Position numbers and translations under genes: made by a program | The notes under the pieces: model-generated | Databases searched by the model: none | What the model was told of the DNA's origin: nothing | The model's input: only the letters and a program-made list of their open reading frames with translations | Assembly (NCBI RefSeq): GCF_900170025.1 | Contig: NZ_FWEX01000006.1 | Coordinates: 2,571,236 to 2,635,235 of the forward strand | Reading direction: 5' to 3' | DNA length: 64,000 nucleotides | From: Nitrospira sp. ND1 | Lineage (GTDB): Bacteria > Nitrospirota > Nitrospiria > Nitrospirales > Nitrospiraceae | In this document: positions 18,545 through 28,177 of the stretch, one piece after another | How positions within the stretch are numbered: the first letter of the stretch is position 1 | Layout of the letters: each line of letters begins with the position of its first letter

Positions 18545-19468
18545 TTACGCGACCAGTGCCGGCGCGACAGTCCCAAGCTGAAGCGCCGTGATCACCTGGT
18601 TGCCGTTCCCGCGATACTCGATCCGATCGAAGCTGACTTTGTTGGCCATGGCGATCCCGCGGCCATGGGTGTCGAAGGCTCGCTCGGGGTCGAAGTTCAA
18701 ATACTTCCGCCACTCGAATCCCTTGCCCTGATCGGTAATGTGCAGGGAGAGTTTGTCTGGATGGCGGACAAAGTGTGCCGTGGCCTCGCGGGACGAGTAG
18801 AGGGGATCGCTCAGCCGTCGCTCGATTTCATTGTCCAGCCGTTCCTCTTCGATGAGGCGTGATTTCTCTTTATAGCCGATATTCAAGTTGCCGTGTTCGA
18901 TCGCGTTCAAGGTGAGTTCGAGGATGCCGGTGACCACCCGATTGGCATCGGGATAGGCATGCGCGAGCAGCATCGCCAGGTTTTTCGCCTCTTCAGGCGT
19001 TTTGAACCGGAACGTTCCCGAGTTCAGCAGGCGCATGGTCGTGGTGGTCCGGCGCAGGTCCTGTCGTACGTCCAGGTAGCTGATGTGATCGCGGACTGCC
19101 GCATCGACGATGGCTTGCAGGGTCGCTTTGTCGAACGGCTTTGCCAGGTAATAGTAGGCTCCTGCCTGGAGTCCTTCCAGGGTCTGCTGATGTGTGGAGG
19201 CCGCCGTCTGCATGATCACGGGAATCTGGCTCAAGACGGTATGATGCTTCATCCTGTGGAGGACTTCCATTCCGTCCATCTCGGGCATGATACGGTCCAG
19301 GAGGACGGCGTGGAATCGGTCCGGTTCTCGTTCCAGCATGTTCCAGGCTTGGACGCCGCTTTGTGCCGTGGTGCACGAATATTCCTTCTCGCGTAGGAAT
19401 TCGAGCAGGATATTGAGGTTGAGTGGAGAATCATCCACGAGCAATAACTGTGTTTGCGGGAACAGCAT
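18545..19468 (-). CDS. Response regulator with GHKL ATPase (anti-sigma-type) output domain
   Basis: A 307-residue protein in two parts. Residues about 5-125 are a receiver domain (LLVDDSPLNLNIL, phosphoacceptor Asp58 in LLDRIMPEMDG, Lys in LAKPFDK). Residues about 150-300 are a HATPase_c_2-like domain (LELTLNAIEHGNLNIGY as N-box, ITDQGKGFEWRKYL as G1, THGRGIAMAN as G2). No HisKA helix is present, so the output is likely a serine-kinase/anti-sigma switch of the RsbW/SpoIIAB sort, or direct ATP binding. I start at the ATG 11 nt after GGAGG; an upstream GTG overlaps that RBS. No anti-anti-sigma gene lies nearby. Confidence 0.85.
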   Translation of the reverse strand: MLFPQTQLLLVDDSPLNLNILLEFLREKEYSCTTAQSGVQAWNMLEREPDRFHAVLLDRIMPEMDGMEVLHRMKHHTVLSQIPVIMQTAASTHQQTLEGLQAGAYYYLAKPFDKATLQAIVDAAVRDHISYLDVRQDLRRTTTTMRLLNSGTFRFKTPEEAKNLAMLLAHAYPDANRVVTGILELTLNAIEHGNLNIGYKEKSRLIEEERLDNEIERRLSDPLYSSREATAHFVRHPDKLSLHITDQGKGFEWRKYLNFDPERAFDTHGRGIAMANKVSFDRIEYRGNGNQVITALQLGTVAPALVA

Positions 19469-19612
19469 GATCCGTGGCACCTCCGGTTGCCGGCTTGGCC
19501 GTCGAGGTCTAGGGCAGAAGTCGTGGGCCTCGCATCGGAATACAAGGCACTGATAGCCCTATCGGAAGTCGACGGAGAATACTTAAGTGAGGGCTGAAAG
19601 AGGGGGAAATCG

Positions 19613-21690: not shown

Positions 21691-23718
21691 TCATTGTCGT
21701 TCGGTGTGTGCTGGGTGGTGGGGCGCTGCGAGGTCCCATCCGACGGAAAAGAGTACGAGGAGACCGGCGGCGGTGGTCTGCTTCGTGCGGGCCGTGGTTT
21801 CCCGAGCCGGCAGGGGCTCGTTCGCGATGAGGCCGTCGCCTAGGACTCGAGCATCGAGATCGAGCGTGCCGCCGATACCGACATTGAAACTGTATTGGTC
21901 CTGTCGATGCGGCCGGTATCCCATCATCAGGCCGAACCCCACGGCGTCGATGATCCGCGACCCCGGCGCGACCGTGAGAAACGGCCCCCAACTCCAACGT
22001 TGCTCGTCCCACCGGTCGATCCAGAGGTGCATTTCCGGCATGAAGCGCACCAGATCGTTTCGTTCATTGTCGATGCGGACGATACGGTTGACGACTGTGA
22101 CGGAATCCACCCGTCTCGGGCCAAGGTTATGTGTCCATCCGAGGCCGAGCCCGAAGCCGAGGCGCTGAAACATCCATGGACGTTCAGCGTCCGTGTCCGG
22201 CGGATTCTCCTTCTTGTCCGTGGCGGGAGCCAGGGTCGGCAGCGGTGTGCGGTCAGTCGAGGGACCGGTCGCGCCTGTCTGCGGAGCAAGAGCTGCCGCA
22301 GAGGAGGAGTCGGCTGAAGCGACAAGCGGAGCGGAGTGAGGGCGCGTCGAATCAGTGGATGGAGTGAGCTGGGGCGGTTGCCGCGGTCTTCGTCTTTCCT
22401 CCGCAGGCTCGATCGCTGGTGTCCAGGTACGACGCTGTTGATCCGCCGACGGTGAAGCCGCAGGTTTGGTCTCCACCTGGGTATCGACGGCGGCGATCAG
22501 TGGTGTCGGCGTCGGTGATGGCGTAGTTGGAGGATGTACCGTGTTCTGCGGTGTGAGCGACTTGGTCGGCGGCATGTCGGATACCTGCGGGGACAACGGT
22601 GTCACCGTGTCAGCGGGTGGTTGGGATTCAGTGGGCAGAGGTTGCGAGGCGATTGCCTTACTGGCTTCGGGATCTCTTGTGGGACCGGTCGCGATCGGCG
22701 GCGCCGGTACCGGACCTGTGTGCGGCCTGGAAGTGGCAACAGCGGGCGAAGTGGCCGCCGAAGTCCCCTCAGGTGCGGGAGAGAGGGATTCCGCAGCGGT
22801 CGAACCGGTGGAGGATTCCGTCGCTGGAGTGGATGGGGTGGGGATGACTGCGATATCCGGTTGCCTGTCGTCCTGCGCCGACATGTCTGTCGGCGGATTG
22901 AGCGACGGTACGGCTGGAAGCGGGGCCGCGCTTCGAGACGGCGCCGGAGGGTTACTCTGGACCGCGCTTGAGAGTGTCCCCAGATCCGGAGCCGCCATGC
23001 CGGGAGCTGTCTGTGGACTTTCTGCCGTCGCGGCGGACGATTGGGGCGTCGGCGGTATCTCGGCGGCTGGTATGGCCCGCACGGGTGTTCTGTTAAATGC
23101 GTGCCGGAGTGAACCATTGCTACTTTCGGTTGCCAGAGTGATCGGAGTTCTTCCGCTCGCATCTCTGAGCTCAGGATCGGCTCCATAGCGAAGGAGTATG
23201 TCGATCACGTTGGCTTGCCGGGTCAGCCGGTCCGCCCGGGATTCACCGGAGAGTTCCCAAAATCGCCTGACGGCCTGATGGAGCGGCGTGAATGCGAGGG
23301 CGTTCCGTGCCGAGGTCTGCGCCTCTGTGGCCAGGAGTGCCTCCACGCAGGGCACCTGCCCATAAAAACTCGCCTGATGTAACGCGGTATTGCCGGCTCG
23401 ATCCGTTGTCTCAACCTCCGCATGCCGGTTGAGGAGTAGAGTGACCAGCGCCAGATTGCCCCTGCCTGCGGCTGTGATCAGTGGCGTCGCGCCCTGGGCG
23501 TCTCGTGCCTCGATATTCGCTCCCTGGTCAAGCAGCCGTTTGGCTTGGGCCGCGGTTCCTTCGGTGAGCGCCCTGTGGATCGAGTGGTCGGAATGGATGA
23601 GCGAGGCGTTCGGTTTGGGTTGCGGCTTATCGGGACGCGCGTGACTGACGGACGGGAGTCCGAAAATGAGAAGCAGGAAGGCGCAGGTAACGCCGGTGCT
23701 GTGGTGCAAGCGAAACAC
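21691..23718 (-). CDS. Exported ankyrin-repeat protein with low-complexity linker and beta-rich C-terminal domain
   Basis: A 675-residue protein. A signal peptide (VTCAFLLLIFGLPSVSHA) is followed by ankyrin repeats at about 45-225 (IEARDAQGATPLITAAGRGN, VETTDRAGNTALHQASFYGQ, PELRDASGRTPITLA). A Pro/Ser/Thr/Ala-rich linker of about 270 residues comes next, then a C-terminal Gly/aromatic beta-strand domain (LGFGLGLGWTHNLGPRRVD to LFSVGWDLAAPHHP) that looks like an outer-membrane beta-barrel. I start at GTG after GGGGACCC; a TTG six codons upstream is the alternative. The domain combination is unusual. Confidence 0.75.
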   Translation of the reverse strand: MFRLHHSTGVTCAFLLLIFGLPSVSHARPDKPQPKPNASLIHSDHSIHRALTEGTAAQAKRLLDQGANIEARDAQGATPLITAAGRGNLALVTLLLNRHAEVETTDRAGNTALHQASFYGQVPCVEALLATEAQTSARNALAFTPLHQAVRRFWELSGESRADRLTRQANVIDILLRYGADPELRDASGRTPITLATESSNGSLRHAFNRTPVRAIPAAEIPPTPQSSAATAESPQTAPGMAAPDLGTLSSAVQSNPPAPSRSAAPLPAVPSLNPPTDMSAQDDRQPDIAVIPTPSTPATESSTGSTAAESLSPAPEGTSAATSPAVATSRPHTGPVPAPPIATGPTRDPEASKAIASQPLPTESQPPADTVTPLSPQVSDMPPTKSLTPQNTVHPPTTPSPTPTPLIAAVDTQVETKPAASPSADQQRRTWTPAIEPAEERRRPRQPPQLTPSTDSTRPHSAPLVASADSSSAAALAPQTGATGPSTDRTPLPTLAPATDKKENPPDTDAERPWMFQRLGFGLGLGWTHNLGPRRVDSVTVVNRIVRIDNERNDLVRFMPEMHLWIDRWDEQRWSWGPFLTVAPGSRIIDAVGFGLMMGYRPHRQDQYSFNVGIGGTLDLDARVLGDGLIANEPLPARETTARTKQTTAAGLLVLFSVGWDLAAPHHPAHTERQ

Positions 23719-24015
23719 GGGTCCCCAACAAGGCAATTCAAGAGGTTCTCGGCCGGTGTATGGTTTAGCATACAGTCCGCATTGGCGTCACCTGAGTGTG
23801 CGACCGGGGTGGAACAATGTGATTAGCGAAGCCGCCGCTCGGTCTTGCATGGGCCGTTGGATGGGCAATGAATTGATGGTCGGGTCAGTCTTCAGGAAGA
23901 GGTGGGAGCGGCAGAGAAGGGATAACGCGGTGAGACCTTGCCAGGGGCGGACCCTCCGGTTGGAAGAGCACTGAGAGGATCACGTTTCAGCAGCTGTGGC
24001 GCCTATGGTCCGGGA

Positions 24016-24510
24016 TTACCAACGTCTATGCCAGCGTCCATAGTAGGGCCGATAGTACCGTGGTCCCCAGGCGTAGGGCCGGCCATAGAACGGTGAGCCA
24101 TAGAGCCATGGACGTCCGAGGTACAGGCCAAAACCCACAGACGGATATCCATAGAGCAATCCGGGCGCAACATAATTGTAGGTCGATACGGAAGAGGACT
24201 GCTCGGCCATCTGACGTTGAAGGTCGGCGGTCATGGCACTTTGCCGATCAGCCTGCTCTTTCAACTGGCCGACGGCGTTTTGCTGGACATGGACCTCTGC
24301 TTCCAGCTTCGAAATTTTGTCGCGCTGGATTTCGATAAACGCCTGCAGGCATCGCGTGTGCGCATCACCCGTGTAGCTTGAACATTCCCAGGGGCCGGAA
24401 GAGTCGGCGGCGTGGAGGGGAGGCGTGAAGAGGACGGTGCAGAAACCGACTGTGAGAAACGTGACCCAATGCCGAGGAGATTTCATTCGATCAGTCGTGA
24501 GACGTACCAT
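24016..24510 (-). CDS. Small exported coiled-coil protein with Tyr/Gly/Pro-rich tail
   Basis: A 164-residue protein preceded by GGGAGG. The signal peptide ends at LHA-AD. A short Cys pair (WECSSYTGDAHTRCLQ) is followed by a heptad coiled coil (QRDKISKLEAEVHVQQNAVG to LQRQMAEQSS) and a C-terminal tail rich in Tyr, Gly, Pro and Trp. No family is recognised. The tail is reminiscent of surface-associated or structural proteins, but this is composition only. Confidence 0.7.
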   Translation of the reverse strand: MVRLTTDRMKSPRHWVTFLTVGFCTVLFTPPLHAADSSGPWECSSYTGDAHTRCLQAFIEIQRDKISKLEAEVHVQQNAVGQLKEQADRQSAMTADLQRQMAEQSSSVSTYNYVAPGLLYGYPSVGFGLYLGRPWLYGSPFYGRPYAWGPRYYRPYYGRWHRRW

Positions 24511-27988: not shown

Positions 27989-28177
27989 CTAGGAGCCTGT
28001 CCGGCATTGACCGTTCGACTGCGGCAAACGATCCACGATCATTTGCGTCGTTCTCGGCCTGAAAAAATCCTCAACGTATTTCAGCGAATACGCTTCCGGT
28101 TTTTCCAGGCCTGCGGCCTCGCATCTGGTCGCGCCTTCTTCGCCTCGCTACGAAGGCCATGTCGGACAGGCTCCTAG
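27989..28177. repeat. CTAG-bounded inverted-repeat element (189 bp)
   Basis: Terminal repeats CTAGGAGCCTGTCCGGCAT and the complement of CTAGGAGCCTGTCCGACAT differ by one base. The interior holds GCGTCGTTCTCGGC and an ACGTATTTCAGCGAATACG hairpin, both shared with the 20416-20541 element. It sits between convergent genes: it starts 2 bp after the symporter stop, and its right-hand CTAG contains the kinase stop codon. No coding capacity. Confidence 0.78.

Follow-up and report, generated by a model that had tools for sequence, protein, structure and literature searches.

The window, a stretch of 64,000 nucleotides from Nitrospira sp. ND1, contains a gene for an exported protein of 675 residues. 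It is read on the minus strand, from 23718 to 21691, as are all its parts given below. The preliminary description had its coordinates right; the strand is newly assigned, and the plus-strand reading of 21691-23718 is interrupted by several stops. The gene starts with GTG at 23718 and ends with a stop codon at 21691-21693; an earlier start, a TTG at 23736, is possible. In the column of the 23718 start, GTG is found in 16 of 19 sequences, the window counted, and ATG in two (L041 and L049). L048 has neither codon there; its ATG lies three codons downstream. The frame is open and conserved at the orthologous loci. It is complete with its three parts in 19 of the 20 loci fetched (L034-L053), L042 being cut by a contig end; L046 and L047 look identical. 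The reading frame is not a product of chance: its C-terminal domain recurs in 20 of the genus's 29 genomes and in G011, and in neither folded domain does dN/dS come near 1.

The protein consists of a signal peptide, five ankyrin repeats, a linker of about 300 residues rich in Pro, Ser, Thr and Ala and a Gly- and aromatic-rich domain of about 150 residues. The predicted Sec signal peptide (residues 1-27; 23638-23718) was read by eye: a hydrophobic core precedes S-x-A/R, here S-H-A/R, the stroke marking the cleavage site. A27-R28 is identical in all 19 aligned sequences. With a Sec signal peptide ahead of ankyrin repeats, as judged from this reading and its conservation, the protein resembles periplasmic ankyrin proteins of the Bd3460, AnkB and RARP-1 kind in this feature.

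The ankyrin domain comprises residues 38-208 (23095-23607). Its assignment to the ankyrin repeat proteins (PF12796/PF00023) rests on Pfam matches to Ank_2 at 3e-20 (73 bits against a curated cut-off of 27.3) and to Ank at 2.5e-16, on helix pairs of the 33-residue type and on invariant columns. In the full-length AlphaFold model five such pairs lie within residues 38-208, the block having a pLDDT of 80-97 from residue 41; the repeats had been seen correctly before. NCBIfam matches of the full protein to Dot/Icm effectors and to MzaA score far under their cut-offs and reflect generic ankyrin similarity. In the fourth repeat the helices are lengthened, and no stretch of the domain stays invariant over more residues than LHQAVRRFWE, which lies there at residues 146-155. 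Judging from this conservation, it is a plausible candidate for the site where a partner binds.

The linker (residues 209-511; 22186-23094) had been described as a low-complexity segment of 270 residues. The low complexity stands; the length is about 300, or 303 by alignment. In the window protein 62% of it is Pro, Ser, Thr or Ala and Cys is missing, and its pLDDT in the full-length model is about 28. Among 20 sequences the length varies from 280 to 337 residues and the content of these four amino acids from 54 to 63%, yet identity to the window protein is only 16-21% in 10 of the 18 sequences compared. No strong tandem repeats were found in it. Length and make-up are thus conserved while the sequence diverges, which is what makes the linker tether-like. 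Comparison with the four closest orthologues gives a dN/dS of 0.75-0.95 in the linker, 0.15-0.24 in the ankyrin domain and 0.03-0.14 in the C-terminal domain.

The latter (residues ~512-662; 21733-22185) is followed by a short tail (residues 663-675; 21694-21732), which is variable in the alignment and missing from four relatives that lack ankyrin repeats. No Pfam or NCBIfam family matched the C-terminal domain of the window protein. When 18 members were scanned at E up to 10, Pfam yielded four families, each for a single member, the best at E 0.1 and none of a barrel type, and NCBIfam yielded one stray match at E 0.089. DUF3720 was rejected for the L032 protein, where it reached only E 0.11. 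OmpA, OmpW, Ail/Lom, Opacity and OMP_b-brl gave no Pfam match over cut-off in these 18, and a sequence search of the PDB returned just two BamA chains, at E 0.44-0.45. The earlier statement that no named family applies holds, for Pfam and NCBIfam, with respect to this domain. The domain represents a barrel-like family, strongly conserved and outside all models of the two collections.

Searches of genomes for the domain covered the Nitrospirota. In the family it is present in 22 of 175 genomes: the 20 of the same genus, G011 of a sister genus, which has the same architecture, and G121, which has the domain without ankyrin. The order-level search (23 of 235 genomes) added G213, and a profile search of the phylum (19 of 395) added G239, G407 and G285. 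Searches around G239 and G407 (2 of 14 and 24 of 268 genomes) contributed solely a contig-edge fragment in G492. Four relatives without ankyrin have intact frames, ending in FSF (G121), FSF (G407), FAF (G239) and YGF (G285). By eye, each opens with a signal-like sequence and they have no gene neighbour in common; those of G239 and G285 carry a helical-looking segment ahead of the domain. In the relative from G213 (L072/L033) an in-frame stop lies within the barrel domain. With the domain of the ankyrin-less L032 relative as the query, tblastn found no match in plasmids and phages, and two scans of viral contigs produced nothing real, the single match overlapping a longer phage-like ORF on the opposite strand. 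Among named records three were found, one being FP929003.1 of Ca. Nitrospira defluvii, with 83% identity; the window genome is a relative of it. A link to lifestyle via AMO (PF02461) was sought in 30 genomes and none had a match; the control genomes were also silent, so this count is uninformative.

As far as the contigs reach, the order of neighbours around the gene is conserved, at one site; the neighbours were mostly named by reading, and the kinase at 28174 was checked. In G022 the contig starts inside the gene. The assembly G041 contains two copies (L036 and L046), the second of which matches the values of the copy in G043, suggesting a mixture of two strains. All nine genomes of the genus that lack the domain retain both flanking genes, which in eight of them are 46-232 bp apart. 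In the ninth, G035 (L099), a close relative, an 850-bp degraded remnant lies between the flanks; it has pieces of ankyrin and linker and no match to the barrel. In a midpoint-rooted FastTree tree of three neighbour proteins, several branches of which have low support, the absences are scattered, and repeated loss is therefore likelier than a single gain. As far as these sequences tell, the gene is an accessory one: most of the genus members sampled have it, it was lost repeatedly, and it is dispensable. The synteny gives no functional hint, because the neighbours are conserved as a block and the flanks persist where the gene is absent.

For the fold of the C-terminal domain we depend on prediction. 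AlphaFold, supplied with 18 domain sequences, built eight strands (9-20, 26-32, 35-41, 44-54, 64-74, 79-90, 98-115 and 134-151 in domain numbering) with a pLDDT of 86.3 and a pTM of 0.76; among its five models there was a poor one, at 48.7. When the full-length protein was modelled with orthologues only, this domain again had eight strands, at a pLDDT of only about 50, so the confident model owes much to the four distant relatives. Foldseek found no match in the PDB at E 1e-3 or better; the best was Ail (1.8e-3), then FadL and OmpA, with TM-scores around 0.3. Applied to Foldseek's 1000 best, VIA-align ranked OmpW first (Z 6.5, rmsd 4.7 over 119 residues), followed by a de novo transmembrane barrel (6.1), OprF (5.8), NspA (5.7), OmpX (5.5) and OmpA (5.2). 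Differences in Z within 1 are ties, so these barrel families stand level, and Z below 8 is the range that the tool calls a common arrangement. Rows 1-15 are all membrane barrels, row 16 is not; Z values of 4-5 were also obtained for a chain of a haemoglobin complex and other non-membrane proteins. The preliminary description had proposed a structure prediction for the last 170 residues, its Gly- and aromatic-rich, barrel-like tail, and the eight confident strands with modest-scoring membrane barrels as neighbours are in its favour.

A further argument comes from the alternation of residues along the strands. In strands 4-8 (44-54 to 134-151), compared among seven diverse sequences, 12 of 12 fully identical positions lie on one parity; these are the five longest later strands, chosen after inspection of the table. 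If identity in six of seven is allowed, the conserved positions are split 19 to 5. The invariant parity carries Gly and polar residues, the opposite one is hydrophobic, with Trp, Phe or Tyr on the longer strands. We call the former inward because of its polarity, not from coordinates; it carries the conserved charged or polar residues R47, E51, H53, D109 and K135. Conserved on the opposite parity are W66, P68, P74, F100 and V114 (six of seven) and L15 (seven of seven, in strand 1). Strand 1 has one invariant position on each parity, the two short strands have none. The pattern fits expectations for a membrane barrel whose interior is conserved, and a predicted barrel in the outer membrane also fits the C-terminal Phe of the four ankyrin-less relatives.

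Alternatively, the domain could be a soluble beta domain on the periplasmic or peptidoglycan side, which would make the protein a free periplasmic ankyrin factor like Bd3460 (see below). The matches in structure are modest, soluble barrels resembling nitrobindin, Rv2717c and dirigent proteins are among them, and the Nitrospira proteins run on for 10-20 mostly polar residues beyond the last strand. A soluble domain would, however, leave unexplained why one parity of the longer strands is hydrophobic, with Trp, Phe and Tyr, while the fully invariant positions of strands 4-8 are found solely on the other, why the four relatives end in Phe and why the top 15 structural neighbours are membrane barrels. 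We consider it unlikely.

The order of the parts suggests yet another possibility. Signal peptide, passenger, linker and barrel is the classical order of autotransporters (type Va), and the ankyrin domain and linker might be passed to the outside and held at the surface by the C-terminal barrel. The fast evolution of the linker would agree with this, as surface parts may show it. Autotransporter barrels, however, have twelve strands, and the predicted model has eight; R47, E51, H53, D109 and K135 on the presumed inward parity would take the place that a passing chain needs. Nor is the autotransporter translocator domain found among the Pfam matches of the 18 members at E up to 10, and the ankyrin domain is under purifying selection. 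Display at the surface is in our opinion decidedly unlikely.

The protein is probably an outer-membrane barrel with a flexible linker and a periplasmic ankyrin domain that captures a partner, as sequence and model together indicate. It would be exported by the Sec pathway, and the C-terminal domain would insert into the outer membrane, form a small barrel of eight strands there and serve as the anchor. Eight-strand barrels of the OmpA/OmpX type have both ends on the periplasmic side, which would place the exported ankyrin part in the periplasm. The disordered linker of about 300 residues could let it reach past the peptidoglycan into the wide periplasm of Nitrospira, and the five repeats may bind a partner protein, most likely via the LHQAVRRFWE repeat. 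A large periplasm is described for Nitrospira in the accessible text of one report (PMC3600790) and indicated by a figure legend in another (PMC4070959); a long tether is sensible in such a space. If this arrangement is right, a tether of conserved length would provide a natural ruler for that periplasm. The earlier suggestion of periplasmic ankyrin repeats tethered to the outer membrane thus gains computational support from the predicted fold, the parity and the C-terminal Phe of the relatives.

Anchoring need not be all that the barrel does. It could be the working part, e.g., a channel or a protein acting on lipids, with the ankyrin domain as an accessory for regulation or retention; this is compatible with the topology of the anchor. 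The barrel is the most conserved part by its dN/dS, it is found without ankyrin in other Nitrospirota, and its presumed inward parity carries polar residues that are conserved. Eight-strand barrels, however, usually lack an open pore, no family match names an activity, and no catalytic motif is established. We regard a working barrel as unlikely.

The preferred reading, an ankyrin domain held in the periplasm by an outer-membrane anchor, invites comparison with known systems. AnkB of Pseudomonas aeruginosa, an ankyrin protein acting in the periplasm, is attached to the cytoplasmic membrane and has a link to the catalase KatB, whereas the anchor predicted for the Nitrospira protein is in the outer membrane. 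OmpA has a periplasmic domain that binds peptidoglycan and follows its barrel; in the Nitrospira protein a long ankyrin part at the N-terminus precedes it. The C-terminal domain resembles OmpW, OmpX and OmpA in its predicted eight-strand fold, its polar conserved parity and, in the ankyrin-less relatives, the C-terminal Phe, but it has no sequence-family match. According to the accessible text of the report, Bd3460 of Bdellovibrio bacteriovorus is a periplasmic ankyrin protein for self-protection that binds and blocks DD-endopeptidases (PMC4686830). It shares with the Nitrospira protein the signal peptide and the ankyrin repeats, and it works in the periplasm by binding proteins (PMC4686830). 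Bd3460, however, is a 23-kDa protein of six repeats encoded beside its endopeptidase target, while in the Nitrospira protein five repeats are followed by a linker of 300 residues and a predicted outer-membrane barrel; no endopeptidase was recognised adjoining its gene. RARP-1, a Sec-exported ankyrin protein of Rickettsia, is periplasmic in R. parkeri, and an ankyrin protein of P. aeruginosa also resides in the periplasm (PMC9553169). Sec export, predicted in our case, is common to RARP-1 and the Nitrospira protein; no barrel is described for RARP-1 in the accessible part of that report (PMC9553169).

Among bacteria, ankyrin proteins are familiar above all from intracellular parasites, which use them on their host cells, as the accessible text of a report on Bd3460 puts it (PMC4686830). 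Here, a free-living nitrite oxidiser seems to employ such a protein inside its envelope, with the outer membrane as the point of attachment. In the titles and the beginnings of abstracts of open literature joining ankyrin, Nitrospira and outer membrane, no account of this protein was found. Its parts are of known kinds; the combination and the barrel domain without a family model are new, as far as the literature searches reach.

The region ahead of the gene is also conserved. A dyad, TGTATGCTAAACCATACA (18 bases; core GTATGNTAAACCATAC), occupies 23757-23774, i.e., 39-56 bases before the start codon, and a TGACG box lies upstream of it at 23786-23790. Sixteen aligned upstream regions are diverged apart from TGAC(G), of which TGAC is invariant, 12 bases and then GTATGNTAAACCATAC, whose TAAACC starts 48-52 bases ahead of the start column. 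The 16-mer core has a single exact copy in the window genome. It occurs in 23 of 175 genomes of the family: 18 of the genus, G011 and four of genus g15. In the 18 and G011 it precedes the ankyrin gene at the loci examined; none of the nine gene-less genomes of the genus has it, and in the only gene-bearing ones without it, G022 and G025, the gene lies at the end of a contig. Rfam gave no match at the dyad, and a sigma-70 consensus was not found upstream of the gene. Since the stem core is invariant in the 16 aligned promoters, an RNA structure is not favoured over a DNA operator.

In the four g15 genomes (L151-L154) the dyad stands 47-49 bases before a sensor kinase gene, in the orientation opposite to that at the ankyrin gene. 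G055 has the kinase, then a lipoprotein-like protein, then a response regulator, and the window genome has a matching group of kinase, middle protein and regulator. The regulator of the latter group (L155:1820-3232) carries a sigma-54 domain; its nearest family is GlrR, at 498 bits and below the cut-off of 763. For the kinase the nearest is WalK, whose cut-off of 725 is missed by far at 210 bits. No family matches the middle protein. We speak of a GlrR-type operon, since only the order of the genes would speak for calling the kinase "GlrK-like". Weak copies of the dyad, with 2-3 mismatches, occur at five places in the window genome, which is chance level as a set, the reversed control pattern giving three. 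One copy with three mismatches (L155:5534-5551) lies 50 bases before the kinase gene of the window genome; only its place makes it suggestive. The operator-like dyad hints faintly at co-regulation of the ankyrin gene with a GlrR-type two-component system, and hence at a role in the envelope. In E. coli, the QseE/QseG/QseF system controls regulators of the envelope, according to the accessible text of a report (PMC6075780). The dyad common to the ankyrin gene and the kinase operon is a lead to regulation.

One may go further and combine these elements. The tether, with its conserved length, might span the wide periplasm of Nitrospira and connect the outer membrane with a complex in the periplasm or the inner membrane, its gene sharing an operator with the kinase, the lipoprotein and the GlrR-type regulator of an envelope two-component system; the barrel might found a new small outer-membrane family of the Nitrospirota whose periplasmic N-terminal parts are interchangeable (ankyrin and linker, helical-looking, Gly/Ala/Pro-rich, or none). 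As a whole, this extended version is improbable.

Two neighbours deserve a remark. Window 18545-19480 (minus strand) encodes a response-regulator receiver fused to a HATPase_c_2 domain. Just upstream of the ankyrin gene, at 24016-24510 (minus strand), lies the gene of a small exported-looking protein with a coiled-coil-like middle and a tail rich in Gly, Tyr, Arg and Pro; no Pfam or NCBIfam family matches it over cut-off, and it is present in 12 of 13 searched genomes without the ankyrin gene.
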